From positions 1 to 51,266 of the IMG/VR virus record IMGVR_UViG_3300011116_001197: a stretch of DNA of 51,266 bases; one strand, written 5' to 3'. Both the position numbers and the translations under genes were made by a program. Shown here piece after piece: positions 3,063 through 51,266 of the stretch. Each line of letters starts with the position of its first letter. Within the stretch, counting starts at the first letter, position 1. The notes beneath the pieces were generated by a model that did not search any database, was not told the origin of the DNA, and saw nothing but the letters and a program-made list of their open reading frames with translations. The stretch is from a virus.

Positions 3063-4475
3063 ATGTCTACTGGTGGATTATTAACTGGTCGAGTGTTTAT
3101 CTTTGCTCCTGTGTTTGTTAACCAAGCTCCAAAGTTTGAAATGGACATGGTAAAGGTTGCCGAACGAGTTCAAGCTAGAGTAGAGTCAAGTGCAAGTTCA
3201 ATAGATCAGCTTCTTGATGAAGCTATGCTTACAGCAAAGAAGATAAAAGATCTGCCAGATGTTTTGTACTCTTACACAAATTCTAAAGCCGATAATTTTG
3301 CTTCTGTTTCTCTTGATGATTTTGAGGGGTGGGTAACAACCAATCAAAAGTTAACAAAGCAAAAGATTGCAAACTTACTTCAGTATATTTCTGAGCATCG
3401 TGATGGGTTTGCTGCTTTGTTTGATATTGTTAAAGCCATTGAAGGTCTTAAGAACAAACTTGTTTCACAACTTGATAAGCAAAATACATCAATTAAAGCA
3501 TTTATTGGGAATGTTCCCGGTGGTGAAGGATATGTTACAAAAGGTGACGATTCTCTTTTAAAGTTGGTTAATCGTGGTGGATTTACTGCTGCCAATCGTG
3601 CTTTAATTCGTGAACAAACTGAGGGGTTGAAACGTATTGGATTTTATCCTGGGGCATTTAAACCATTTCACCGTGGCCATTATGAAAGCATTCTTGCGGC
3701 AAAAGAAAATTTGGATAAACTTTTTGTGATTGCCTCTGCTGGTGATCGTATTCGTGAAGGTGAGTTTCCTTTAAGTGGTGAAGCTTCTCAAATTTATCTT
3801 GACAGATATATTAAACCAGCCTTACTTTCTCAAGGAATCGAATTGATTGTTTCTGTTAAATCACCTGTTAAAGTTGCAATTGATACAGCAAAAGCCGATT
3901 ATGACAATGACCCAGAAGCTGAAGTATCTTTCTTTGCTGGCGTGGAAGACATAGGCAGAATTAATCCTGCAACTCTTCAACGCAATCTTCCAAATCTTTT
4001 TGCGGCAGGAAGAGTTCATGCAAAACAAACAGAAACAATCATGGGCTCGGAAACGATTCGTGTATCTGGAACAGGTGCAAGAAGAGCTTTAGAAGCTGCG
4101 GATTTGAATGCGTTTAAGGAATCTTTGCCTGATATACCAGAAGTTCAAAGAGATGCTGCAAAGATTATGGAACTGTTTATCAAAGATAGTCCAAACGTGC
4201 TTGTTAGAGCTCAAGAAAAAGAAGCAGCTAAAAAGAAAGTTAAAGTCAAGATGAAAACAGAAGAATTGTTGGCTGAAATGATTTCGCTACTCATTCAAGA
4301 AGAAATTTTATTGGAAAAGAAAAAGCGTAAAGGCCGTGTCCACTTTCCACCAGAAGTAGAAAAGATTATCAAGACAAAACTCAAAAAGCAATACAAGGGA
4401 AATCCAGAAGCCATGTATGCTACCGCAACAAAAATTATGAAAAAAATGGGTCTAAAGAAAATTTCAAAAGAATGA
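3063..4475 (+). CDS. HxGH cytidylyltransferase-like domain protein (C-terminal part of the interrupted gene)
   Basis: 470 residues if translation restarts at the ATG at 3063; reading through the TGA would join it to the 1698 ORF. Around residues 190-205, FYPGAFKPFHRGHYESI contains the GxFxPxHxGH signature of the NMNAT/PPAT-type nucleotidyltransferases, with an ISGTxxR-like IRVSGTGARRALEA about 145 residues later. The last 75 residues are lysine-rich and end in KKMGLKKISKE. AAAGGAG lies just upstream of ATG 3063, but only about 2 nt separate them, and these bases also encode FKGD, so re-initiation is uncertain. Together with the upstream half the gene would have three nucleotide-transfer domains. 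Substrate unknown. Confidence 0.65.
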   Translation: MSTGGLLTGRVFIFAPVFVNQAPKFEMDMVKVAERVQARVESSASSIDQLLDEAMLTAKKIKDLPDVLYSYTNSKADNFASVSLDDFEGWVTTNQKLTKQKIANLLQYISEHRDGFAALFDIVKAIEGLKNKLVSQLDKQNTSIKAFIGNVPGGEGYVTKGDDSLLKLVNRGGFTAANRALIREQTEGLKRIGFYPGAFKPFHRGHYESILAAKENLDKLFVIASAGDRIREGEFPLSGEASQIYLDRYIKPALLSQGIELIVSVKSPVKVAIDTAKADYDNDPEAEVSFFAGVEDIGRINPATLQRNLPNLFAAGRVHAKQTETIMGSETIRVSGTGARRALEAADLNAFKESLPDIPEVQRDAAKIMELFIKDSPNVLVRAQEKEAAKKKVKVKMKTEELLAEMISLLIQEEILLEKKKRKGRVHFPPEVEKIIKTKLKKQYKGNPEAMYATATKIMKKMGLKKISKE

Positions 4476-4478
4476 AGT

Positions 4479-4486
4479 TACTTATA
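4479..4486 (+). promoter_or_regulatory. Late-promoter-like octamer TACTTATA
   Basis: Matches the recurring CTANTTAT motif. It lies 38 nt upstream of the ATG at 4525, with a small hairpin (TAGGTT/AACCTA, 4490-4507) and an AAAGGAG ribosome-binding site in between. Confidence 0.5.
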
Positions 4487-4524
4487 GCTTAGGTTAAACA
4501 GAACCTATTAAAAGGAGATTTAAT

Positions 4525-4749
4525 ATGAAAGTAACAGTCAAACAACTCAAGGCATTGATTCGTGAAGCCGCAGAAGAAGCAATGGCAGAATGTGGTTATG
4601 AAGAAGAAACCGTAAAAGAAGCAAAGAAGGAAGAAAAAGAAGAAGTTAAGAAAGAATCAACTGAAGAAGCCGCACTACAAGAAGCCGTAGTGGCAGCTTA
4701 TCGTGCTGGTCTTCGTCGTGGCCGTGCAACAGCCACTCGCCGTCGCTGA
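4525..4749 (+). CDS. Small charged protein with capsid-targeting-like N terminus
   Basis: 74 residues in three parts: an amphipathic N-terminal helix KVTVKQLKALIRE-AAEEA, a lysine/glutamate-rich middle (about residues 28-55), and a very basic tail RRGRATATRRR. The LIRE-A segment fits the T4 prohead protease rule ([LI]-x-E before a small residue), and the arginine tail could bind DNA. By analogy with T4 internal/core proteins it may be packaged in the head, but no homologue is recognised. It has a good AAAGGAG ribosome-binding site and its own putative late promoter and terminator, so it is a single-gene unit. Confidence 0.6.
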   Translation: MKVTVKQLKALIREAAEEAMAECGYEEETVKEAKKEEKEEVKKESTEEAALQEAVVAAYRAGLRRGRATATRRR

Positions 4750-4780
4750 ATTTTTTTTCGTTAATTCATAATTATAACTG

Positions 4781-4820
4781 GAGGGTTTAAGGGCTGTGCC
4801 CTTGAGCCCTCTCGTTTTTT
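4781..4820 (+). terminator. Rho-independent terminator between convergent genes
   Basis: GAGGGTTTAAGGGC and GCCCTTGAGCCCTC pair with only two weak positions around a TGT loop, followed by CGTTTTTT. The T run overlaps the stop codon of the convergent HAD gene. Confidence 0.8.
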
Positions 4821-5505
4821 ATGCTTCAACAATACGAGAACGAATACGAAGAGTATCGCCAAAACGTTCTAACAAGTCTGGATCTTTTCGTAGATCAGCA
4901 ACGGCTTTAACATTTAGAGGGCTGTCGTCAAAAAATTCAACTTGAGGAATGTCCCTGTTTAACATTGCTTGTTTGATCCAGTTGCTTTTTGCTAAGGGAT
5001 CACTGCTGTCCAAAGTTTTTACTGGGATATCAATATCCAAACTACGGAGAAACTTACGAATATGTGGATTAGCTTCATGTCCTCTTGCTGTTAAGATTAC
5101 AGCAGGAATTCCATCGTCTTCTCTAAGTTTTTTGACAATGTTTTGTAAGATATCAAACGTTTGATTAATAATTTGCGGATCAACGACTTCGGCAAAATCG
5201 CTATAATCAAACTTGTAGGTTCGATCAGGATTGTTTCCAATTACATCGGATTTGAATCTTGCGTATTGTGCTGGGGTAATAGAAAACGTTTGCAATTCTT
5301 TTTCGGTGATCTTGTCCAGTTCAATTACACGCACTTTGCTATTTGTTTTTGCAAGAGTATCATCAAAATCAAACACACGTAAGGTGCGTAATCCTGAACG
5401 GTTTGATCTGACACCAAGTTTTTCATATTCTTGGCTATGAATTTCTAAAAGGCAGACAGTTATCTCATCACGTATGATCTGTTTTAACTGTTTTAAATGG
5501 TTCAT
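4819..5505 (-). CDS. HAD-superfamily phosphatase
   Basis: 228 residues. Motif I is RVFDFDDTLAKT (nucleophile Asp46, acid Asp48), motif II is VILTARG, and motif IV is VEFFDDSPLNV, with lysines in between (SNWIKQ) that could serve motif III. This is a complete HAD phosphohydrolase active site, resembling the phosphatase half of polynucleotide kinase/phosphatase and related phage nucleotidases; the substrate is unknown. The N terminus MNHLKQLKQIIRDEI resembles the amphipathic leader of several other proteins here. It is convergent with the gene at 4525 and divergent from 5530. Confidence 0.8.
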   Translation of the reverse strand: MNHLKQLKQIIRDEITVCLLEIHSQEYEKLGVRSNRSGLRTLRVFDFDDTLAKTNSKVRVIELDKITEKELQTFSITPAQYARFKSDVIGNNPDRTYKFDYSDFAEVVDPQIINQTFDILQNIVKKLREDDGIPAVILTARGHEANPHIRKFLRSLDIDIPVKTLDSSDPLAKSNWIKQAMLNRDIPQVEFFDDSPLNVKAVADLRKDPDLLERFGDTLRIRSRIVEA

Positions 5506-24360: not shown

Positions 24361-24621
24361 TTAGATAAGCTCTACGTCGGCGGGATCAATTAGTTCTACC
24401 AGTATGCTGTTTGTTGGTAAATCAAACTTTACCACAAGAGGAACATGCCAAATTGGATGACTTTCAGTTCTACGTTTAAAAGCTACCGCACGTTCAAACT
24501 CTAAAAGAACTTGATGTTGAACCATTGGTGTTAATGGTTTATGTAGAAATTGTGAATGCAACACATCCAAATAATGATTTAAAACTTTATACCAATAGTT
24601 TCTTGCTACTCTAATGCTCAT
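24361..24621 (-). CDS. Small hypothetical protein downstream of purA
   Basis: 86 residues, helical then beta (NYWYKVLNHYLDVLHSQFLH, LVVKFDLPTNSILVELIDP). Not recognised. Its ATG overlaps the purA stop (ATGA), so it is translationally coupled to adenylosuccinate synthase and may be functionally linked. Confidence 0.6.
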   Translation of the reverse strand: MSIRVARNYWYKVLNHYLDVLHSQFLHKPLTPMVQHQVLLEFERAVAFKRRTESHPIWHVPLVVKFDLPTNSILVELIDPADVELI

Positions 24622-25727
24622 AGAACAATCATATCTTCTCTTTCTGGAGATGTTGAGATGTGTGACACTTTTGTTTTTAGTGCTCGTTCAATCATATTGA
24701 TGTAATCCATAGCTTTTTCTGGAAGTTTATGGCCATCACGCATTCCTTTTGTTGATGTATTCCATCCTTGCATAGTGTGGTATTCACTCCGCAATACGCA
24801 CACCGGGATTTTATCGAAACTATCAAGCACATCTAGTTTTGTTATAACAATATCATCCACTCCGTTAAGTGTGCAAGCATAACGCAAATCAGGCATATTC
24901 AACCATCCGCAGCGACGGTTTCTTCCTGTTGTTGTTCCATATTCCCCACCAAGCTCTCTTAGCTTGTTTCCAATGTCGTTAGCTTGTTCTGCTGGGAATG
25001 GACCCTCGCCCACCCGTGTTGTATATGCTTTAACAACACCAATCACTTTACGCAAAGCTTTGTGGTTTAATCCTGTACCTGTCAGGGCAGCACCAATCGT
25101 GCAATTGGAAGAAGTAACGTATGGATAGGTGCCATGATCGATGTCTAGCATTGTGCCTTGTGCACCCTCTAGAAGAATATTAGCGCCGCTTGTATGAGCA
25201 TTACGAAGCAAGTCTTGGGTATCGCAAATAAATGGTCTAATAATCTCACAGACTTCACGAAACGTATCATACACTTCGATATCACCTTTTAGAATATCTT
25301 CGATTCGAAGACCTGTACGGCGCATTTTGGCAGCATAAGTTGGACCAATGCCTCGGCCTGTTGTTCCTACGACATACCCTGTGGCACGATCTTCTTCGAC
25401 AGTTTTTGGAGTGATCAGGTGAGCAGCATGAGAAATAAACAAACGACCTTTTAGTGACGACGGTCCACCATGTTCTTCGATTTCCTTTGCTAGTTGGAAA
25501 AGATCAACAACACAACCATTTCCAATAACGTTATTCACATAAGGACGAAGAACTCCAGAAGGAAGAGCATGAACAGCAGTACGATGACCATTTACAACAA
25601 GTGTATGTCCAGCGTTGTTGCCTCCATGGAAACGTACAACATATTCATAGTTCTTAGCTAGATAATCTACTACTTTACCTTTCCCTTCATCCCCGTAGGA
25701 TAGCCCAAGGACCACATCAGCAGGCAT
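24618..25727 (-). CDS. purA: Adenylosuccinate synthase (PurA-type)
   Basis: 369 residues. It catalyses IMP + Asp + GTP to adenylosuccinate in AMP synthesis. The N-terminal P-loop-like GLSYGDEGKGKVVD keeps the catalytic Asp of GDEGKGK; FHGGNNAGHTL, GNGCVVDLFQL, GTTGRGIGPTY, LLEGAQGTMLDIDHGTYPYVTSS-type and TTGRNRRCGWLN motifs follow in normal order. It is short compared with bacterial PurA (about 430) and nearer the archaeal length. Phage PurZ, which makes the 2-aminoadenine precursor, replaces that Asp with Ser or similar, so this is not an obvious PurZ. It would raise adenine nucleotide supply. The endonuclease gene ends just upstream and a relic of the purA start lies beyond it. Confidence 0.93.
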   Translation of the reverse strand: MPADVVLGLSYGDEGKGKVVDYLAKNYEYVVRFHGGNNAGHTLVVNGHRTAVHALPSGVLRPYVNNVIGNGCVVDLFQLAKEIEEHGGPSSLKGRLFISHAAHLITPKTVEEDRATGYVVGTTGRGIGPTYAAKMRRTGLRIEDILKGDIEVYDTFREVCEIIRPFICDTQDLLRNAHTSGANILLEGAQGTMLDIDHGTYPYVTSSNCTIGAALTGTGLNHKALRKVIGVVKAYTTRVGEGPFPAEQANDIGNKLRELGGEYGTTTGRNRRCGWLNMPDLRYACTLNGVDDIVITKLDVLDSFDKIPVCVLRSEYHTMQGWNTSTKGMRDGHKLPEKAMDYINMIERALKTKVSHISTSPEREDMIVL

Positions 25728-29717: not shown

Positions 29718-30077
29718 ATGCCTCCTAAGAAGAAAAAAGAACCAGAAGTATCTGTTGAAGAGTCTGAGGTAGCAGCAATTAAAACAGAGGTGAATATCTC
29801 TGAGCTTTTTGAAAAGTTACGTGAGTTTGATAACAAGGTTCTCCTAGAACGACTTCAGGTTCTGGAGCGTAGTATAACTTTATTATACAAAGAGCAGTTA
29901 AACAATCGTTTGATTTTGAATGAGATACAACAAAACGTTTCATATCTTTCGGTTGCTCAGGAAGAGTTGTTAAACAGCATGGGTCTTTCAATAGAAACTG
30001 TGAATCAATCATCAGAAGATGAAGAACAAGAGGACAAACATTCCTCTTCTGAAAGTGTTGATAAAAAATGGAACTGA
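29718..30077 (+). CDS. Coiled-coil hypothetical protein
   Basis: 119 residues: a lysine-rich start (MPPKKKKEPEV), a central heptad-rich helix (LFEKLREFDNKVLLERLQVL and NRLILNEIQQNVSYL) and an acidic Ser/Glu tail. A trimer- or dimer-forming coiled coil is likely. It has an AAGGAG ribosome-binding site and overlaps the spanin-like gene by 10 nt. Confidence 0.6.
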   Translation: MPPKKKKEPEVSVEESEVAAIKTEVNISELFEKLREFDNKVLLERLQVLERSITLLYKEQLNNRLILNEIQQNVSYLSVAQEELLNSMGLSIETVNQSSEDEEQEDKHSSSESVDKKWN

Positions 30078-30511
30078 CTTTGTTAAAAATTAAAACCGGT
30101 TTTGCTATGTTTTGGAGTTTTTTAAAACTCCATTGGGCTCAATTGTTTTTGATTTTTGGTGCCTTTTATGTGATTATTTTCGTAAAGAGAAAAGAAGATT
30201 TGTTACAATCGTTGCTTCAACAACGTGCATCTGTTGAAGCAACTCATACTGCAAACATAAATCAACTACAAACAGCATTACAACAAGAAATAGAAAAACG
30301 TCAGCAAGTTGAAAACCGTTACGCTGAAATGATTGCAAGTATAAAAAAGGACAATGATGAAGCCATAGCTAAGTTGGCAAACCAAAGAGAAAAAGACATA
30401 AAAGAAATAATGGTGTTGTACCATAATGATCCACTTGCAATGGCCACCGCAGTCAGCACAACGTTCAATATCCCAATCGTTCACTTCCCAGAAGTAAACC
30501 CTCGACCATGA
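30068..30511 (+). CDS. Inner-membrane spanin-like protein (Rz-like)
   Basis: 147 residues with one N-terminal membrane span (WAQLFLIFGAFYVIIFV), then a positively charged turn and a long periplasmic coiled coil (about residues 45-120), ending in HFPEVNPRP. This is the architecture of i-spanins, which pair with an outer-membrane lipoprotein to fuse the two membranes at lysis. The next gene, overlapping by 4 nt, encodes a lipoprotein, as in Rz/Rz1 pairs. The coiled-coil gene upstream overlaps it too. Confidence 0.65.
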   Translation: MELTLLKIKTGFAMFWSFLKLHWAQLFLIFGAFYVIIFVKRKEDLLQSLLQQRASVEATHTANINQLQTALQQEIEKRQQVENRYAEMIASIKKDNDEAIAKLANQREKDIKEIMVLYHNDPLAMATAVSTTFNIPIVHFPEVNPRP

Positions 30512-31098
30512 AAACTCTTTTTCTTTCTTCAATTTTAATTGCTTTTGGTTGTGCTTCTACAAGTCAAACTGTTAGGTCATATGCAAGTGTTCCAGCGCCT
30601 GTTCAATCTGCAATTGACATGACGGTTTATAACCCTCCTACTCTACCAACAGACATCCGTTCTATTCGTATTCAAACTTACCAGTATCCATCTGTTGCCG
30701 GTGCTGCGGTCGCTCCGATTGAACAAGGTCGTGCTGTAACCACAACATTTAATGGAATATGCCTAAATGCCGCAGCCCAAGCAACAATTGAATCTGATAT
30801 TAATACAACACTTAGAACAGACGAGATCAATCGTCTTACAAGTCTTGGACTTCTTGGAGCAACAGCAATCCGAGATATTTCAATTGCCAGGAATGACGCA
30901 GCAATTCAACGTGCTTTTTTTGAAGCTCAAATTAGAGATAGAGATGATCAAGTAAACTCTGCCAATCAAATTATTCGCAACTTGGAAAACAACAGTGGTT
31001 CTGGAGTTTTAAACGTTTTACGAACTGTTGGTTGGATTAGTGGTGGTGTTGTTTTGGGGATTGCTGTTAGCGGCGTGTATGTATTATTAACCCACTAA
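30508..31098 (+). CDS. Lipoprotein, possible outer-membrane spanin
   Basis: 196 residues. The N terminus MKTLFLSSILIAFGCAS is a lipoprotein signal with Cys15 (lipobox AFGC). A long polar region follows, and, unusually, a C-terminal hydrophobic span (ISGGVVLGIAVSGVYVLLT). It overlaps the i-spanin-like gene by 4 nt, so an o-spanin role is plausible, but known o-spanins are usually shorter and proline-rich with no second span. It might instead bridge membranes on its own like a u-spanin. Confidence 0.55.
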   Translation: MKTLFLSSILIAFGCASTSQTVRSYASVPAPVQSAIDMTVYNPPTLPTDIRSIRIQTYQYPSVAGAAVAPIEQGRAVTTTFNGICLNAAAQATIESDINTTLRTDEINRLTSLGLLGATAIRDISIARNDAAIQRAFFEAQIRDRDDQVNSANQIIRNLENNSGSGVLNVLRTVGWISGGVVLGIAVSGVYVLLTH

Positions 31099-31117: not shown

Positions 31118-31360
31118 ATGGAATTACTTTTAAAAAACAGTGACGGCAAACCAAGTCTAAGTTTTACAATGGTTTACATGGTTTTTTTTGTTTCTCTTCT
31201 ATGGTTCACACTTTCAATGTTTGAAATCCCACACGTAAAAGGTTTTGATGTAACCACAGCTTCTGGATTTCTTACACCTCTTATAGCTCTTTACTTTGGT
31301 CGCCGCTGGAGTGATTCTCGAAACAGCACAAGTGAAGAAGGTGGTTCTGGTAACTCTTAA
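31118..31360 (+). CDS. Holin candidate
   Basis: 80 residues with two hydrophobic segments (FTMVYMVFFVSLLWFTLSMF and TASGFLTPLIALYF), a basic RRW turn and a polar Ser/Gly-rich tail. Two-span class II-type holin topology, next to spanin-like genes and near the endolysin. The ribosome-binding site is AAGGAG. The role is inferred from topology and place only. Confidence 0.6.
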   Translation: MELLLKNSDGKPSLSFTMVYMVFFVSLLWFTLSMFEIPHVKGFDVTTASGFLTPLIALYFGRRWSDSRNSTSEEGGSGNS

Positions 31361-31403: not shown

Positions 31404-31411
31404 TATTTATA
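31404..31411 (+). promoter_or_regulatory. Late-promoter-like octamer TATTTATA
   Basis: Full motif (CTATTTATA context) 41 nt before the ATG at 31453. Confidence 0.55.
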
Positions 31412-31452: not shown

Positions 31453-31743
31453 ATGCTAACCGGTAAAGAATATCTGGATAGTGTTGACGCCGCTATTCAA
31501 GAAGAAATAGATACCGAGTTACAAAGACTTCAGTATTTTCTAAAAGCAAACGCCCGTGTTCACAACACACGGTTTCCTTTTTTATTCCCAGTAAAGAACT
31601 GCCGCTTTGAAGTTATTGAAGCTTTGGCTGCACATCTAACTGAAGCAGGATGGAACGTAGAAAAGGGCAAAGAATACTTGCAAATCATGCCTACAAAAGT
31701 AATGCCGTCTTCGGCACCTCACCCTCCATTTCCTCGCAAGTAA
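31453..31743 (+). CDS. Hypothetical protein
   Basis: 96 residues from ATG 31453 (MLTGKEYLDSVDAAIQEEI), with AAAGGA upstream. Helical N-terminal half, then CRFEVIEALAAHLTEAGWNV and a proline-rich C terminus. It resembles small phage proteins of unknown role; no family assigned. Confidence 0.6.
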   Translation: MLTGKEYLDSVDAAIQEEIDTELQRLQYFLKANARVHNTRFPFLFPVKNCRFEVIEALAAHLTEAGWNVEKGKEYLQIMPTKVMPSSAPHPPFPRK

Positions 31744-31758
31744 AACAAAATGCATTCT

Positions 31759-31766
31759 TATTTATA
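31759..31766 (+). promoter_or_regulatory. Late-promoter-like octamer TATTTATA (pilin-like gene)
   Basis: Full motif 13 nt before the ATG at 31780, with TTGGAGG between. Confidence 0.55.
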
Positions 31767-31779
31767 GTTGGAGGCTTCT

Positions 31780-31947
31780 ATGAATAAGTTAATAAAAAAC
31801 ACCGATGGACTTTCAACAGTTGAATATGTGATTATTCTCATGCTGATCGCCGTGGTTGGTATTGTTGCTTGGAGAACATTTGGAAATACAGTTGTTGGTA
31901 AAATCAATGCTGGCAACAGTCAAATAAGCGGCTTAGGTGGAACCTAA
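31780..31947 (+). CDS. Flp/Tad-type (type IVb) pilin-like protein
   Basis: A 55-residue protein, too short for most gene callers. After a short basic leader ending NTDG, the sequence LSTVEYVIIL begins a hydrophobic helix (to about residue 31), then a small soluble tail (FGNTVVGKINAGNSQ, ISGLGG). The Gly before a prepilin-peptidase site, Glu at mature position 5 and the Glu-Tyr pair are hallmarks of Flp pilins. The leader is the right length. Good TTGGAGG ribosome-binding site and a full promoter-like octamer indicate real, probably late expression. It could alternatively be a small lysis membrane protein that only resembles a pilin. Confidence 0.72.
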   Translation: MNKLIKNTDGLSTVEYVIILMLIAVVGIVAWRTFGNTVVGKINAGNSQISGLGGT

Positions 31948-32011: not shown

Positions 32012-32494
32012 ATGTCAGTTTCAACAACAATCGACTCAACACTAGGCGTAGTTTCAACGGTAGATGCAGCCGGTGCTACAAGTGCAGTTACAATTTCACA
32101 AGCAACAACTCTTTCTGGTGATGTTTCACTTTCAAGCGTTGCTTCTTTGCTTTTGAAATCATTAGCAGTTACACCAACTGGAACAAACTTGGCTACTGCT
32201 GCTGCTCTAACAACAGGTTATACACTTTATCTTCTTGGCGCAGGAGCAGCAGATACAGGTGTTAAGCTTTCAGCAGCACCAACATTAGGTCAAATTGTTG
32301 TGGTCCTTAACACAACAGTTAACCAGAAAAAAGTTTATCCAGCATCAGGTGGAATCATTGGTGCTGGTAATGCTGGTGATGCAATTGTGCTAACTTCAGT
32401 AGTTGCAGGTACATCAAGAGGTGGAGCAATTCTCGTATGTTCAGATGCTACCGCTGGTGCTACAAAATGGCATCACTTTGCAGTAGTAGCCTGA
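32012..32494 (+). CDS. Ala/Thr/Ser-rich structural-type protein
   Basis: 160 residues, rich in small residues. N-terminal repeats resemble fibre or decoration sequence (TISQATTLSGDVSLSSVASL), and the second half appears to be a beta domain (GQIVVVLNTTVNQKKVYPAS, GGAILVCSDAT, KWHHFAVVA). It resembles capsid-decoration or fibre-tip proteins, but no family is recognised. A very strong ribosome-binding site suggests high late expression. It precedes the endolysin. Confidence 0.6.
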   Translation: MSVSTTIDSTLGVVSTVDAAGATSAVTISQATTLSGDVSLSSVASLLLKSLAVTPTGTNLATAAALTTGYTLYLLGAGAADTGVKLSAAPTLGQIVVVLNTTVNQKKVYPASGGIIGAGNAGDAIVLTSVVAGTSRGGAILVCSDATAGATKWHHFAVVA

Positions 32495-32554: not shown

Positions 32555-33367
32555 ATGTCTATAATCCTAAATGAACAACTAATACAAGTTCCTGGTGTAA
32601 AAACCGTATCTTGGAAAGATCCAGAAGCGCAAGCTCTTGGTTTAAAAGAAGTATCGCACAAAAGCCCACGCAACACATGGCTTCGTGGCATCGTTTGTCA
32701 TACCATTCATGGTAAACTTGGCAAACTACTTCCCGGTCTTGGACCAGATACTAGTATTGACATTGCTCAAGCGAAATATCAAGTCAACACAACCCGTGAA
32801 GTTTCCTGGGATTTTACTTGTGATATGAATGGTGATTGGCTTGTTCAAAACGATCCAGCAAGATACTATACATGGCAAGCAACAAGTGTCAACGGTTACT
32901 CCTGTGGTTTTGAACTAGTTCAACATGATAACGGTGATCTTTATGAAGGTCAGATTGCCAAAGCTGTACAGTTTATTGATTTCTTAACAGCTAAACTTGG
33001 TATTCAACGTCAGATTCCATGGGATATGAAAAACAACTGTCCTCCAAAGGGTACAATCAGTCGTATTGCTGGCCCTAACAGTGGTAGAGATGTTATTGGA
33101 GTCTATTGTCATTATCATCAAACTACAAACCGTGGACAAGGTGATCCCGGCCCTTGGTTGCAACAAGCTCTCAAAGCTGCTGGATATGAAACCTATGCAT
33201 TCGATGGAGATGACGATAAAGCGGTCTGGAAGGCTCGTCAGAAGGCTTTAGGGTTTACTGACAAGGATTGTGATGGTGTTCCCGGTCCTGCCACTGTAAG
33301 GGCTTTAAAAGCCTCTGGCAAGGCACATGGTATGTGGATTAAACGTCCTATTGACGACTTGATTTAA
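32555..33367 (+). CDS. Endolysin, N-acetylmuramoyl-L-alanine amidase
   Basis: 270 residues. An Amidase_2/PGRP-like fold is shown by GIVCHTIHG (zinc His49), GYSCGFELVQ and GVYCHYHQTTNRGQGDPGPWL-type sequence (second zinc His and the K/R-x-DPGP loop). It cuts the amide between N-acetylmuramate and L-alanine in peptidoglycan. The C-terminal ~55 residues (FDGDDDKAVWKARQKALG, DCDGVPGPATVRALKAS) look like a peptidoglycan-binding helical domain (DG-x2-GP-x-T). It has no signal peptide, so it needs a holin. Its RBS is inside a hairpin. Confidence 0.85.
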   Translation: MSIILNEQLIQVPGVKTVSWKDPEAQALGLKEVSHKSPRNTWLRGIVCHTIHGKLGKLLPGLGPDTSIDIAQAKYQVNTTREVSWDFTCDMNGDWLVQNDPARYYTWQATSVNGYSCGFELVQHDNGDLYEGQIAKAVQFIDFLTAKLGIQRQIPWDMKNNCPPKGTISRIAGPNSGRDVIGVYCHYHQTTNRGQGDPGPWLQQALKAAGYETYAFDGDDDKAVWKARQKALGFTDKDCDGVPGPATVRALKASGKAHGMWIKRPIDDLI

Positions 33368-36890: not shown

Positions 36891-37499
36891 ATGGCCACAA
36901 AGTTAAGTGAAATCTATCGCAAACATCAAGCAGAAAAACTTATGGAAGTTCGTGTTAGCTTGCTTGAAAAAGGTGTGTACCCATTTGATGCATTCCTAAA
37001 AGAACACAGTCAAACAATTAGCACTGCTGATAAAATTGAACGCTTAGAAACTGTTTCTGAAGCCTTTAAAGCTAATGTACCAACCCTTTATATGTTTGTA
37101 AAGGCAAATACAAATACACTGCTAGAAAGCAACACAAAAGCAGAAAATATTGAATCTGCAATGATCAACTATGCTTTCTTGTCAGAAGCTCTTGGTAAAT
37201 GCGTAAAAGAAGCAGTAAAAATATTAGCTACCAAACACGATAACAAACAAAGCTTAGCTAGCGTTTATCGTAAAGATGCAGTTAAACTTCTGGAGTTTTG
37301 TGTTAAACGTTCAGAAACACACAAGCTTGTAGAAGGTGATACTACCCTTGTAGTAAAGAATCTTGCAACAGAACTAGCTTCACTTCCTATTTCTTCACTT
37401 GTTCAACTCTGTGAAAGCGTTCCAGCAATTCCTCTGTATCTCTCTCGCAAGAATCACGATACTCTTGCTTGCTCAATTCTGGAAACCCTTAAAGGTTAA
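36891..37499 (+). CDS. Hypothetical helical protein
   Basis: 202 residues, almost all alpha-helix (KLSEIYRKHQAEKLMEVRVS, AEKAFKANVPTLYMFVKAN-like, ALGKCVKEAVKILATKHDN). No family recognised. It is convergent with the GroEL-like gene, overlapping its end by 4 nt. It may belong to the virion given its late-type promoter motif. Confidence 0.6.
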   Translation: MATKLSEIYRKHQAEKLMEVRVSLLEKGVYPFDAFLKEHSQTISTADKIERLETVSEAFKANVPTLYMFVKANTNTLLESNTKAENIESAMINYAFLSEALGKCVKEAVKILATKHDNKQSLASVYRKDAVKLLEFCVKRSETHKLVEGDTTLVVKNLATELASLPISSLVQLCESVPAIPLYLSRKNHDTLACSILETLKG

Positions 37500-38866
37500 T
37501 CCTTCATCAAAGCCCCGGCGCTAGTAAAATAGCCCGCAGCTAGATCCGCAGCAAATCCACAAGCAAAATATGGTAGGACACTAGCAACTTTAACATCTAG
37601 GTTTCCTATTAATTCCTTGTGAACTTTCTGCCAAACTTGATTCAAGTTTTCAACTTTAACAGTAGAAGGTTCAATAAACCCATAAGTGTATGTTGTTCTG
37701 CAAACTCTAATCGCATTGTCGATAGAGGCTTTTCTCTTTGCACTGTCTTTTTTTGGAAGAGTAATAGTAACAACATGTGCCAACAAGTTTTGTATTCTTT
37801 TTGTTGTTAAATCGGCAAGGTCTGTAACTACAGCGTTTTCTTGTTGCTCTTTTCTACGAATATTCAAGTAATTCAAGTGAGACAGCACTCTGCCACGGGT
37901 GCTGCTATTATGCAAAGTCAAAACATTGCTCGTAATAGAAACACGTTCAACTGTAGGTAGTTGATCATAATCGACATACATGAGCATTTCACCTTTTAAA
38001 GTGCTTAGTACATCGCCGCCTGCTACAGCAGAAATATCGTTTAAAACATTCAAAGCTTCAAGGGATTGCTGAAGGCGTATTGGCATCACATCAAATACAC
38101 CACGACTGTTGTTGTTCCAAATGGTAGCGATAACCTCTTCAGAGAAACCTTGAGCGACAATTATAAATGGATTCTTTGTTTCAAAACTTTTTGATAAAAG
38201 CTTGTCCATTTCTGATACCTTTTCAATCAAACCATCAACAAGAAGAACTTTTACGTTTGATCGATTCCATGTACCAATAGCAGGAATAAATCCCTTGAAT
38301 GGCTGAACAAGAAAGTTGTAACCAAATTGTAATTCGACAACAATATTGTCGCCATTACCTTCTTCTACTACAACGTTTCCTTCAATACCGGCAAGTTTGG
38401 TTGCTTCCTTTACGACAGACGCAACAATAACATCACCAGAGACTTCATCAATCAAGTTATCAATATCTGAGGGAGATGCTGGAGAACATACTCTGAGAAT
38501 ATTATTTAGGTATTTTTCCTTCTCTTCTTGGTTATGTTCCACTAGGGTTTGATACCTGAGATTTTCTGTCTTAACATACTCTTTTGCAAACAGATCAAAG
38601 GCACGAAGAAAATAAATGCTACTTCCATGACATTTTAGTTCAAGTTGAAAACACATTTGAGCTAACTCGCTAAAAAGCATACGCTCCCAGTTGTTTTCTG
38701 GAGTGAGTAAATTTACAAGTAATTGATAAGAATTTTTTTGCAAATAGGTTCTGTTTTGGTTTATCGCTAACTCTATCTTTTCAAGGTTGTTTTTTAGCTT
38801 AAAAAGTGCTTTTAGCAAGCTGTTTTCGGTGGTTTTTTTATCGACAAAAATATTGTTTGAAGACAT
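37496..38866 (-). CDS. Degenerate GroEL-like chaperonin
   Basis: 456 residues from ATG 38866, which has AAAGGA upstream; the longer frame back to 39142 overlaps another gene. Residues 162-292 follow the GroEL apical domain: GNVVVEEGNGDN, VELQFGYNFL, VKVLLVDGLIEKVSEM, NPFIIVAQGFSEEVIATIW, RGVFDV and LNDISAVAGGDVL, then the intermediate/second hinge KRIQNLLAHVVTITLPKK with KRKASIDNAIRVCR. The ATP motif GDGTTTATVLA is replaced by about CHGSSIYFLRA (79-89), and GroEL Asp398 aligns with Asn384. The TLGPKG and GGG motifs are absent and the C-terminal equatorial part is shortened. It therefore probably does not hydrolyse ATP. Functions: substrate-binding or host-GroEL modifier. Confidence 0.72.
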   Translation of the reverse strand: MSSNNIFVDKKTTENSLLKALFKLKNNLEKIELAINQNRTYLQKNSYQLLVNLLTPENNWERMLFSELAQMCFQLELKCHGSSIYFLRAFDLFAKEYVKTENLRYQTLVEHNQEEKEKYLNNILRVCSPASPSDIDNLIDEVSGDVIVASVVKEATKLAGIEGNVVVEEGNGDNIVVELQFGYNFLVQPFKGFIPAIGTWNRSNVKVLLVDGLIEKVSEMDKLLSKSFETKNPFIIVAQGFSEEVIATIWNNNSRGVFDVMPIRLQQSLEALNVLNDISAVAGGDVLSTLKGEMLMYVDYDQLPTVERVSITSNVLTLHNSSTRGRVLSHLNYLNIRRKEQQENAVVTDLADLTTKRIQNLLAHVVTITLPKKDSAKRKASIDNAIRVCRTTYTYGFIEPSTVKVENLNQVWQKVHKELIGNLDVKVASVLPYFACGFAADLAAGYFTSAGALMKD

Positions 38867-38888
38867 GAGATTCCTTTGTAAAATACTA

Positions 38889-38896
38889 TATTTATA
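38889..38896 (+). promoter_or_regulatory. Late-promoter-like TATTTATA, palindromic context
   Basis: Within CTATATTTATAG between divergent genes. The reverse strand reads TATAAATA, an exact T4 late consensus, so it may serve the gene at 38913 and/or the GroEL-like gene. Confidence 0.5.
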
Positions 38897-38912
38897 GCAA
38901 AGAGGTAATGTA

Positions 38913-39455
38913 ATGGCTACGACTTCCGAAAAAGAACTCCTTGAAACTCTAATCAAGAAAATGGGTGAATCCTCTGCCCTGAATGGAGGTTTTGACAAGT
39001 TGTGCTTGATGATCGAGCACATACAAGAAAAACAGGAAGAATCAAGCAAGAAACTTGATAAAGTTTCGGAAGCTTTGTACGATCCAAACAGCGGCCTCTT
39101 TTCCCGTGTTAAAGCTATTGAAAGCAAACTGGACACAAACATTGAAGAGCTTGAAAAAAAGGTTCGTGTGGTTCCAGATGTAAAAAGTGAAGTTCATGAC
39201 TTGAAACTTGATGTTCAAGAAATGAAAAAGTTTAAACAAATGATTGAAGATATCTCAGGTAAACAACTAGAAGAAATAGCCAGTCTTAAAAAATTTAAAA
39301 CAACGATGGAAGAAATTGCCGGTAGACAACTGGAAGAAATTTCAACCATTGTTAGACTCCGTAAAAACCTATCAAACATTTATTGGGCACTCACACTTTC
39401 TATGATCGGTGCTGCTCTAACAACTCTTTTCAACATCATAAAACATGTAAATTAG
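38913..39455 (+). CDS. Coiled-coil protein with C-terminal membrane anchor
   Basis: 180 residues. Heptad-rich (HIQEKQEESSKKLDKVSEAL, ELEKKVRVVPDVKSEV), with a direct internal repeat: MKKFKQMIEDISGKQLEEIA and LKKFKTTMEEIAGRQLEEIS. A C-terminal hydrophobic span (WALTLSMIGAALTTLFNII) anchors it to membrane. No family recognised; it could be a spanin-like or membrane-associated morphogenesis protein. Good AGAGG ribosome-binding site. Confidence 0.65.
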   Translation: MATTSEKELLETLIKKMGESSALNGGFDKLCLMIEHIQEKQEESSKKLDKVSEALYDPNSGLFSRVKAIESKLDTNIEELEKKVRVVPDVKSEVHDLKLDVQEMKKFKQMIEDISGKQLEEIASLKKFKTTMEEIAGRQLEEISTIVRLRKNLSNIYWALTLSMIGAALTTLFNIIKHVN

Positions 39456-47491: not shown

Positions 47492-50400
47492 ATGGCAAAC
47501 TCAGTAGACTTTCGTGCAGACCAAGTACAAGTAAACAAACTTATTGCAACAGGAAGCAACGCAGGATCAACCGAAGCAATTCTTGTATATGGTATCACAA
47601 ACCAAACATCTCCACTAAACCAAGGCAACATAGATGCTACCAAGTTTCCAACAGGAAGCATTGGTTCTGATGTTTTCCTGTATGTGTCTGGTGGTATTGG
47701 TGGTAAAAATGTTCCCGGTGGAGCTATCTCAGTATTCGGCGGTGATCTCCACGTTTCTGGTGGTCTTACCGTTGATGGTCCGTTTGGTGGAACAATCGCA
47801 AACGCTATTAATGCTCTTACCGCAAGTCTTGTTTCTGGCTCTGTTATTGCTCTTACACCAATCACAGGAACTCTCAGTGGAACTCTTGGTGGTCTACCAT
47901 TCATCATCGCCGGTCCAAACGTAAGAACAAACTATTATGAATCAACTGGGCAATGGGCTGTAACAGCTTCTCTTACAGGCGCTGGAGTAACTCCCGGTGG
48001 AGCAGATGGTCAGATCCAATGGAATAATACAAACAACTTTGATGGACTCTCTGTTCTAACCTTTGATGGTTCAACACTTCAAGGAACAGGTAGTTTCTCT
48101 GGTAGTTTTCAAGGAACATTCTCTGGTGTAGCCGCAAATGCTGTAACTGCTTCATTTGCAACCACAGCAAGTTTTGCTTCCCAAGCATTGTCATCCAGTT
48201 ATGCACATAATGCCTTATCAGCTTCTTATGCGGATAACGCTCTTTCGGCTAGTTATGCTTCTCAGGCATTATCAGCAAGCTATGCAGACAATGCTCTCTC
48301 AGCGTCTTATGCCTCACAAGCTCTTTCAGCTTCATATGCCGATAATGCACTATCCGCTTCGTATGCATCTCAAGCACTCTCAGCCTCCTACGCAGATAAT
48401 GCTCTTTCTGCATCTTACGCTTCTCAAGCCTTGTCGGCAAGTTATGCTGATAATGCACTTTCTGCCTCATATGCTTCACAAGCACTTTCTGCTAGCTATG
48501 CAGATTTTGCTCTCTCTGCTTCTCATGCTGATTATGCCGACGCAGCAGGAACAGCTTCTGTAGCTCTTTCAAGTATTCAATGGCAAGATGGTGGTAACAA
48601 ACTAGCTACAACCTCTTCTGTAGCCCTTGCTGGTGCTCTTGGAACAGGATACTTTGCTGATAACGTAGATCCAGCAATCAACTTGTTTGTGTCAGGCGCA
48701 GCCGTTATTGGTGGAAATCTTATTGTTTCTGGCGCTCTTGAAACAGATACAATCCTTGGTAACACACTTCAAGGTTCAAAAATAACAACAGATTATATTG
48801 AACTTGTAAATGTTGTTGATGAACCTGTTCCTTCAGTGAATGGAACATATCTTTATACTTCTGGTTCAACAAACGATCTTTACATTGTTCATAACAATAG
48901 CGCACTAAACAAAACCAACTTCCGTTGGGTTGAAAACTCTCTTGGAACAGGTCTTCTTCAAGGTGGTATTCTTTCAACAGAGCCTGGAACAACAACATTC
49001 AGTGTAACCGCTGGTGAAGGTATCATCCTATCGTACAATGCTACGACTTCTTCTGTTCCAGATGCAACAATCAAAAAAGTTGATTGGAGTGCTTTTACAA
49101 GCCAATCTCTAACATACATCAGCAGTGACCCACAAACCTTTATTGGTATCAGTGACACAGGTGCATTGTTCCAACAAACAACACCATTTACTGCTGACCA
49201 ATACGCTCTTTATATTCTACTTGGTCGTGTTCTACATGTTTCTGGAGCAACAACATATGGCATAGCAAACCAACCAAGAGTTGCGTATGGTCAATCAAGC
49301 TGGAACGGAGACTTTGCTCGTTCGTTCGGTCCTCTAAAACTTTCTGGCCACGTTCTTGCAGCATCTGGTTCAAGTCTCAGTCTTGTAAAAACAGGTGGTT
49401 CTGCATATGTTGAAGGTAAGAACTACGCTGTAGATCCAAACAACCCAAACGTTGTTCTTCCATCTTCTGACGGTCCAGTTACTGTTTCTAAACTTTTCCG
49501 TCAATATGTTTCTGGATCAGATTCAACCGCTATTATAATAGACACAAACGGTGGTACTGGTTTCACCGACATTGATCCAAACAACTATAACCCAAGCAAT
49601 GCAGGAACACTTACACCAGTAACTCCCGGTAGATTTACTATCCAAAGAGTTTATTGGGCTCCAAACAGCTCAACAAATGCTTTCTGGGTATATTACGGTA
49701 GCGGTGAATATAACTCACTTACAGAAGCTCAAGCAGGTATCCCAACAGAAATCTTCCAAGAAGGTACAAACACCATAGGTGCAACGATCCTTGTTGGAAA
49801 CATTCTGGTAGCAAGCGGAGCAACAGATCTATCAAATCCAGCACAAGCTCAGTTTGTTCAAGGTGGTTTGTTCCGTGGATCTGGAACAGGTATCGGTGGT
49901 GCCGGTGGTGCTACAGTTCCTGGTGGTCTTGACACCTACGTTCAGTTCAATGATGGTGGTAGTACATTCGGTGGTGATCCCGGCTTTACCTACAATAAGA
50001 CTACCAACACACTATCAGTTGAAAACATCACTTCAACAACTATAACAGCTTCAACTGGTATCTCTTCTTCTGGAACCTTGTCAGTTGGTGGCAACACAGT
50101 TCTTACAACTGTTACCGCATCAAATCTAAACATCACGGGAACCTTTACATCAGCAGGCCCTGTAATCGCTTCTGGGGGCCTTTCTGGGTCACTACAAAAA
50201 CTTGCTGATGGAAGTGATTATCTTGTTGCTGGACCGAATATAACGGTCAATACAGCCTCTAGCGGTCAAGTTTCTATCACTGGTTCTATTGGCGGTAGCG
50301 ATACTCAAATCCAATACAATAATAATGGTTTGTTTGGTGGAGTATCAACCCTTACCTATAATGGTTCACTCTTGCAAGGCACAGGTAGTTTCTCTGGTTC

Positions 50401-51266
50401 ATTTGCAGGAACTCTTGATGGTACAGCAAGTTATGCCACAAATGCTGGGGATGCAAGCACAGTAGGCGGTCAATCACTATCTGGTCTTGCTCAACTTAAT
50501 GTAAGCAACACATTTACACAGAATAATGTGTTTACAACAGCGACAGGTAGCTTTTCTGGCAGTTATCAAGGCGTGTTGACAGGAACAGCAAGTTATGCTT
50601 TGACTGCTACTTTTGCAGAAAACTCAAACTTGCTTGATGGTTTGCATTCATATCAGTACGCACAACTTGCAGCAAACAACACATTTGCTGGTGACAACAT
50701 CTTCCAGTTCGGTCTTTCTGGCTCTCTACAAAAACTTGCAGATGGAACACCTTATCTTGCAGCAGGACCAAACATCACAATCAACACAGCATCAAATGGT
50801 CAGGTAAGAATCACAGGTTCTATTGGAGGCACCAACACACAACTTCAATACAATAACAATGGATTGTTTGGTGGTGTATCTGTTCTTACATACAACGGAA
50901 CAACACTCCAAGGTACAGGTAGTTTTTCTGGTAGCTTCCAAGGCAACTTGACAGGTACAGCAAGTTTTGCTTCAAATGCTGGATTGTTGAACAACCTTGC
51001 TGACACGGCATTTGCTAAACTTGCTTCAGCAAATACATTCACACAAACAAACGCATTTGCAGCGGTGACAGCAACTTCAGTTTCTTCATCTGGAAACGTA
51101 TCTGCTCAAGGTAACTTGTTTGTTCAAGGAGCAACGCAGCTTACAGGTGCAGTAAACCTTGGCAGCACATTGTCTGCATCTGGTCAGATCTCAACAGCTA
51201 ACAATCTTCGTGTACAAGGAACAACACAGCTTACAGGCGCAGTAAACGTAGGTGGACAACTTACAG
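47492..51266 (+). CDS. Very large repetitive tail fibre protein (3' partial)
   Basis: At least 1258 residues, open to the window end. Order: N-terminal attachment module (VDFRADQVQVNKLI), GTLGGLPFIIAGPN link, 13-unit ALSASYA repeat (about residues 232-348), a ~350-residue module related to the 45342 protein (WNGDFARSFGPLKLSGHVL, GLDTYVQFNDGGSTFGG), then recurring GSLQKLADG / GPNITVNTASSGQV / IQYNNNGLFGG / LQGTGSFSGSFQG / GTASYA units. The same LFVQGATQLTGAVNL stretch as in 44316 appears near the end. Such repetitive strand-rich sequence is typical of trimeric phage fibres, with the tip beyond the window. Confidence 0.82.
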   Translation, partial: MANSVDFRADQVQVNKLIATGSNAGSTEAILVYGITNQTSPLNQGNIDATKFPTGSIGSDVFLYVSGGIGGKNVPGGAISVFGGDLHVSGGLTVDGPFGGTIANAINALTASLVSGSVIALTPITGTLSGTLGGLPFIIAGPNVRTNYYESTGQWAVTASLTGAGVTPGGADGQIQWNNTNNFDGLSVLTFDGSTLQGTGSFSGSFQGTFSGVAANAVTASFATTASFASQALSSSYAHNALSASYADNALSASYASQALSASYADNALSASYASQALSASYADNALSASYASQALSASYADNALSASYASQALSASYADNALSASYASQALSASYADFALSASHADYADAAGTASVALSSIQWQDGGNKLATTSSVALAGALGTGYFADNVDPAINLFVSGAAVIGGNLIVSGALETDTILGNTLQGSKITTDYIELVNVVDEPVPSVNGTYLYTSGSTNDLYIVHNNSALNKTNFRWVENSLGTGLLQGGILSTEPGTTTFSVTAGEGIILSYNATTSSVPDATIKKVDWSAFTSQSLTYISSDPQTFIGISDTGALFQQTTPFTADQYALYILLGRVLHVSGATTYGIANQPRVAYGQSSWNGDFARSFGPLKLSGHVLAASGSSLSLVKTGGSAYVEGKNYAVDPNNPNVVLPSSDGPVTVSKLFRQYVSGSDSTAIIIDTNGGTGFTDIDPNNYNPSNAGTLTPVTPGRFTIQRVYWAPNSSTNAFWVYYGSGEYNSLTEAQAGIPTEIFQEGTNTIGATILVGNILVASGATDLSNPAQAQFVQGGLFRGSGTGIGGAGGATVPGGLDTYVQFNDGGSTFGGDPGFTYNKTTNTLSVENITSTTITASTGISSSGTLSVGGNTVLTTVTASNLNITGTFTSAGPVIASGGLSGSLQKLADGSDYLVAGPNITVNTASSGQVSITGSIGGSDTQIQYNNNGLFGGVSTLTYNGSLLQGTGSFSGSFAGTLDGTASYATNAGDASTVGGQSLSGLAQLNVSNTFTQNNVFTTATGSFSGSYQGVLTGTASYALTATFAENSNLLDGLHSYQYAQLAANNTFAGDNIFQFGLSGSLQKLADGTPYLAAGPNITINTASNGQVRITGSIGGTNTQLQYNNNGLFGGVSVLTYNGTTLQGTGSFSGSFQGNLTGTASFASNAGLLNNLADTAFAKLASANTFTQTNAFAAVTATSVSSSGNVSAQGNLFVQGATQLTGAVNLGSTLSASGQISTANNLRVQGTTQLTGAVNVGGQLT
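48185..48535 (+). repeat. 13 tandem 27-bp coding repeats (ALSASYADN / ALSASYASQ)
   Basis: Thirteen consecutive 9-residue units; for most of the array DN- and SQ-ending units alternate, giving a 54-bp higher-order period. DNA copies differ mostly at synonymous positions while the protein is almost constant. Confidence 0.95.

Follow-up and report, generated by a model that had tools for sequence, protein, structure and literature searches.

In the Flp/Fap pilins of Tad (type IVc) pili, cryo-EM of Caulobacter PilA has placed Glu5 and Tyr6 in hydrogen bonds within the filament core (PMC11067988), and Thr33 and Thr51 of the same protein contact the phage PhiCb5. Phage products that act on host pili have also been described; a protein of the filamentous phage Pf inhibits type IV pili (T4P) (PMC8764522), and phage proteins act on PilB (PMC11436027). 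In the freely accessible literature that was searched, there was no described case of a phage-encoded pilin or Flp pilin, and INPHARED contained no convincing phage match to Caulobacter PilA or to the pilin reported here. This pilin is encoded by a phage contig, and the reading that we prefer, at a probability of about 0.62, is that it is a host-matched prepilin that enters the Tad pilus system of the host late in infection.

The window (the whole stretch of DNA that was analysed, 51,266 nucleotides, positions 1 to 51,266 of IMG/VR record IMGVR_UViG_3300011116_001197) belongs to a large tailed phage with a contractile tail, in which a major head protein, sheath, tube, PhoH and a GroEL-like protein were recognised. 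The pilin gene was initially annotated in a slot between a holin candidate and the endolysin, and this position was borne out, with a gene for a 98-residue protein (p98) before the pilin and one for a 160-residue protein (p160) after it. The features of the region, in window coordinates, are as follows.

30068 to 30511, plus strand: Rz-like spanin (inner membrane); phrog_739, E=1.9e-4
30508 to 31098, plus strand: lipoprotein-like, outer spanin candidate; Cys after a signal-like N terminus, weak phrog_890 lipoprotein match
31118 to 31360, plus strand: holin candidate, 80 aa, two hydrophobic (TM) segments; no Pfam or PHROG match
31404 to 31411, plus strand: promoter-like TATTTATA before p98; CTATTTATA in 4/4 phages in the alignment
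31453 to 31743, plus strand: p98, 98 aa from a TTG start, soluble, paired with the pilin; no convincing Pfam match
31759 to 31766, plus strand: promoter-like TATTTATA, 13 nt before the pilin ATG, with GGAGG in between
31780 to 31947, plus strand: Flp/Tad prepilin, 55 aa (leader 1-10, mature 11-55); near-identity to Tad-locus pilins and Pfam Flp_Fap at 17.9 bits
31780 to 31809, plus strand: prepilin leader MNKLIKNTDG with Gly-1; from the sequence and the invariant columns G10, E15 and Y16
32012 to 32494, plus strand: p160, 160 aa, between pilin and endolysin; conserved in 6/6 phages
32555 to 33367, plus strand: endolysin, amidase_2-like with a peptidoglycan-binding domain; domain matches

The product of the pilin frame consists of the leader MNKLIKNTDG followed by LSTVEYVIILMLIAVVGIVAWRTFGNTVVGKINAGNSQISGLGGT, a mature part of 45 residues. 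The leader is basic, 10 aa long and has Gly at -1, which puts the expected cleavage between G10 and L11. At mature positions 5 and 6 are Glu and Tyr (LSTVEY), and the columns of G10, E15 and Y16 are invariant across 22 aligned pilin sequences. From sequence and hydropathy, the protein has a single hydrophobic N-terminal helix (top 19-residue Kyte-Doolittle mean of 2.49) and lacks a globular domain, and a GGAGG ribosome-binding site lies directly 5' of the ATG. The Flp-type leader, the Gly at the cleavage point, Glu5 with its neighbouring Tyr, the helix and the strong ribosome-binding site that had been read from the letters are thus all present. Against Pfam Flp_Fap (PF04964) the window pilin scored 17.9 bits, below the curated cut-off of 32.2 bits, which has no discriminating power in this clade as genuine Tad-locus pilins of Myxococcota themselves score 14-21 bits. 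A profile of the window pilin family aligned with Caulobacter PilA (8u1k) at E=0.0024.

A scan of genome contigs returned 22 relatives of the window pilin, all of them in MAGs of Myxococcota or 'Deltaproteobacteria'. The nearest, L005 and L007, are identical to it at 44 of 45 mature residues, the hydrophilic C terminus included, so that one conservative residue separates the phage and host pilins. The leaders of the host pilins are longer than the 10-aa phage leader. After the pilin gene in the L007 genome come genes for an A24 prepilin peptidase, TadE, RcpC/CpaB, a secretin, an FHA-T2SSE ATPase and a T2SSF protein, and judged by gene content this is a complete, standard Tad locus. A search for Tad loci in likely hosts, proposed at the outset, therefore found one around the cognate pilin gene in Myxococcota. 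The match to bacterial Tad pilins, together with synteny in three other phage contigs, means that 31780-31947 is a real gene, far beyond chance. That its product is a Flp/Tad pilin, either a copy or a mimic of that of the host, is strongly supported by the same 44 residues and by variation that matches host type. From pilin similarity alone, the host of the phage is probably a myxobacteria-like member of the Myxococcota. One host genome (G005) also has a second, orphan flp at L006:4983-5156 (G005:C129), which adjoins a serine/threonine kinase-like gene, differs by one mature residue from the Tad-locus copy in L008 and has no recognised Tad genes around it.

M. xanthus kills prey with a Tad-like Kil pilus that is made with Flp pilins (PMC12075869), and the host genomes of this analysis likewise come from Myxococcota and have Tad loci. 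The phage pilin might therefore act as, or together with, a Kil-type Flp (the major pilin KilP or the adapters KilK or KilO) and so maintain or change contact-dependent killing by a predatory myxobacterial host. The cognate host pilin could belong to a Kil-type or to an adhesive Tad system, however, the hosts are uncultured and may or may not be predators, and we consider this link to predation unlikely.

The initial annotation had allowed that the product could be a small lysis membrane protein. A pinholin or antiholin that merely resembles a pilin would suit the slot between holin and endolysin and the single hydrophobic helix, but it would not be expected to be nearly identical to Tad pilins as far as the hydrophilic C terminus; furthermore, a separate holin candidate with two TM segments is present, and similarity of the pilin to a holin or antiholin family, which was to have counted against the pilin reading, was not seen in Pfam or PHROGs. 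The equivalent position was inspected in related phages. The pilin lies in the identical slot in the window and in three other phage contigs, L002 (a 260-kb contig), L003 and L004, whereas L100 (a 119-kb contig) and L101 have the spanin, lipoprotein, holin, p160 and endolysin in unchanged order without pilin or p98. P98 directly precedes the pilin in 4/4 phages, and both are missing in 2/2 of these relatives. Because the relatives retain the whole lysis module without the two genes, pilin and p98 form an accessory cassette and are not a core lysis part. The suggestion of a small lysis protein is accordingly unsupported; it was excluded on the presence/absence pattern and the homology to Tad pilins, and we rate it as very improbable. 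P98 is a candidate functional partner of the pilin, judging by their pairing. Its family gave nothing reliable in Pfam or PHROGs, one member matching a late-transcription coactivator at E=0.02, and an AF2 model of p160 was uninformative (pLDDT 44).

Despite the near-identity of the proteins, the window pilin gene and the host gene share a nucleotide identity of 0.71 and a third-position identity of 0.25, and the synonymous difference between phage and host pilins is saturated (ps about 1) at a dN of 0.06. The window has a GC content of 0.40 compared with 0.67-0.71 in the host contigs, and the pilin codons are AT-rich and phage-like. Between the window and L002 and L003, the dN/dS of the mature pilin is about 0.04, and its dS (0.5-0.8) is like that of the endolysin (0.7-0.9; window versus L002 or L003). 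The low mature dN/dS and the saturated synonymous sites indicate that the amino-acid sequence is held by selection, and the phage apparently requires a faithful copy of a part of a host surface filament. Phages acquire host genes, and the host-like sequence could in principle reflect a freshly captured passenger without function, but the saturated third positions rule out a recent capture. Such a passenger would also not be expected to have phage-like codons, to be under this constraint among phages or to share its slot in four of them, and we regard the explanation as extremely improbable.

The fate of the gene in L003 also speaks against a passenger. There, a GIY-YIG-like homing endonuclease gene (4024-4935, minus strand; the GIY-YIG label is our reading of the sequence and not a database match) interrupts the pilin gene after codon 14. 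Within the pilin region L003:3991-5168, a 5' remnant, MNKLIKDTKGLSTV, lies upstream of the insertion, and past the insertion there is a new start, with the leader and cleavage Gly present a second time in diverged form. The leader and cleavage site have thus been rebuilt, and an intact prepilin is retained. An Rfam search detected no intron at the endonuclease site. A parallel arrangement is seen in L004:3298-5223, where, after the endolysin, come a GIY-YIG-like gene (4105-4923, minus strand) and then a duplicated fragment of the endolysin C terminus (4969-5223).

Two types of host pilin were distinguished, type A (L005-L008) and type B (L010, L011, L013 and L014), with seven fixed differences at positions 11, 19, 27, 33, 36, 37 and 40. 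The pilins of the window, L002 and L003 are type A at 7/7 of these positions and that of L004 is type B at 7/7; at position 44, an eighth A/B difference, the three A-type phages agree and L004 does not. A pilin tree (30 sequences, 55 columns) places the phage pilins by host type and rejects their monophyly (AU p=0.017), which from 55 columns is a moderate case against a single phage clade. In a tree of nine core phage genes, the window and L004 group together, and L002 and L003 are apart. As the core tree groups the phages otherwise, pilin type does not track phage lineage, and on the sequences compared it is host type with which the pilin goes. The pilin tree, and its disagreement with the core tree, speak against one capture followed by vertical descent; the type matching could stem from recapture, from exchange between phages or from selection for a match to the host.

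Two of the host-type differences, mature positions 19 and 37, correspond in our own mapping by mature position to Thr33 and Thr51 of Caulobacter PilA, the residues that contact PhiCb5. This raises superinfection exclusion, in which late flooding of the membrane with pilin, or co-assembly into the pilus, would block or mask Tad pili that this phage or its competitors use as a receptor. In Caulobacter, Tad pili serve phages as receptors (PMC11067988), and other phages are known to block pili against rivals (PMC8764522; PMC11436027). A filament mixed from proteins that are one conservative residue apart, as are the window and L005/L007 pilins, would however look unchanged, and the known pilus-based exclusion proteins are inhibitors and not pilins. 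We therefore consider exclusion possible but somewhat unlikely.

The initial annotation had placed a full late-promoter octamer before the gene. The exact TATTTATA occurs four times in the window compared with 1.8 expected, a count reached in 11/100 shuffles, and as this enrichment is not significant it was set aside as a late promoter. The relaxed form TAYTTATA is enriched (8 versus 3.3 expected; 2/100 shuffles), and 8/8 of its sites (window 4479-38896) are found where plus-strand genes begin, in most cases 5-49 nt and often 5-19 nt upstream, so it is likely to be a phage promoter element. The pilin is preceded by TATTTATA or TACTTATA in the window, L002 and L003, and in the latter two the homologous TACTTATAA stands ahead of the gene. 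That the site 13 nt before the pilin ATG acts as a promoter is plausible but not certain, due to its being very close to the ribosome-binding site.

In the preferred reading, the prepilin, which is of Myxococcota origin, would be made late in infection and inserted into the inner membrane. There the A24 (TadV/FppA-type) prepilin peptidase of the host would cleave it after Gly10, and the processed pilin would join the host pilin pool that the host Tad machine polymerises; expression, processing and co-assembly are all inferred. Since its mature sequence hardly differs from that of the host, the phage pilin would act inside the host pilus, either supplying it or competing there, and not as a lysis protein or an unrelated poison. 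The related phage contigs searched, which are possibly incomplete, yielded no A24 peptidase, RcpC or TadE; this is consistent with reliance on host machinery, and a self-contained phage Tad system was rejected. The preferred but unproven benefit is that the infected cell is kept supplied with Tad pilin, by which the phage would control pilus-dependent surface contact or receptor display. The location in the lysis module is an odd place for such a supply and is a point against it.

A processed pilin in the membrane would by itself be sufficient for another explanation, in which a larger inner-membrane reservoir of pilin acts through c-di-GMP to alter host attachment and motility. In a Caulobacter model (summarised in PMC11067988), retracted pilins interact with PleC and raise c-di-GMP. 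Such signalling is not known from Myxococcota, and the host-matched, exposed C-terminal residues would not obviously be required for it, which makes it quite unlikely.

For described phages, the view that pilins are unusual cargo holds, yet two unrelated IMG/VR contigs bear Flp genes. G081 (91.8 kb, with portal, tail and UvsX genes) encodes a Flp that scores 74 bits, over the cut-off, and shares nothing with the window by phmmer. G085 (77 kb, with GroEL, DnaE, ribonucleotide reductase and endolysin genes) has both Flp and TadE genes over their cut-offs, and GroEL is all that it has in common with the window. The G081 Flp (L107:9912-10088, G081:C1) is of alphaproteobacterial type, and the Flp and TadE pseudopilin genes of G085 are about 0.9 kb apart (L108:438-1941, G085:C1). 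For three further Flp matches (L095-L097), which are found at the edges of contigs or next to non-phage genes, host DNA is a possible source.

Three other genes of the window are of note. The GroEL-like protein (37496-39142, minus strand; phrog_5725) is divergent, and its likeness is confined to residues 295-491. An adenylosuccinate synthase (24618-25727, minus strand) scored 449 bits with PurA, over the cut-off, and 140 with PurZ, below the cut-off, so a PurZ (Z-genome) reading was rejected; in PHROGs, its family bears the label of the 2-amino variant. A fibre-like protein (47492-51265) has a long array of near-identical ALSASYA-type repeats and is open at the contig end.

More broadly, and tentatively, since we would sooner doubt than assert it, a lineage of large phages may keep a host-matched Tad major pilin as a standing mimic. 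The mimic would track the diversification of host pilins, perhaps driven by pilus-using phages, and the phage would display or recycle its own pilin via the host Tad machine and so control a receptor or predation organelle. If this is true, the separate Flp (and Flp with TadE) genes in unrelated phages would make mimicry a general strategy. The pilin offers a testable system in which phage-host co-evolution can be read from seven residues, and for phages that have not been cultured it is a candidate marker of host range.

Compared with the Flp/Fap pilins of Tad pili (PF04964; Caulobacter PilA, PDB 8u1k and 8u2b, and Myxococcota Flp), the phage pilin is alike in length, leader, Gly-1, Glu5-Tyr6, helix and 45-residue mature part, but its gene is AT-rich, lies in a late module and has no other Tad gene found with it, and its leader is shorter than those of the host proteins. 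KilP, KilK and KilO of M. xanthus (PMC12075869), here compared by description only, are likewise Myxococcota Flp pilins with a G/XXXXE motif that need a Tad-like machine; they differ in being chromosomal, and KilP has 97 aa. With the moron or auxiliary genes of large tailed phages, the phage pilin shares a host gene under purifying selection, but it is a subunit of a surface filament matched to host type and not a metabolic enzyme. The Pf inhibitor and the proteins acting on PilB are, similarly to the phage pilin, phage products aimed at the host pilus system; they are, however, unrelated type IV pilus inhibitors, whereas here the phage product is the pilin itself. Against the known ability of phages to shut down or mask the pili of their hosts, carriage of the pilus subunit itself, nearly identical to that of the host despite fully diverged DNA and matched to the host pilin type, suggests a new way to handle a host surface machine.
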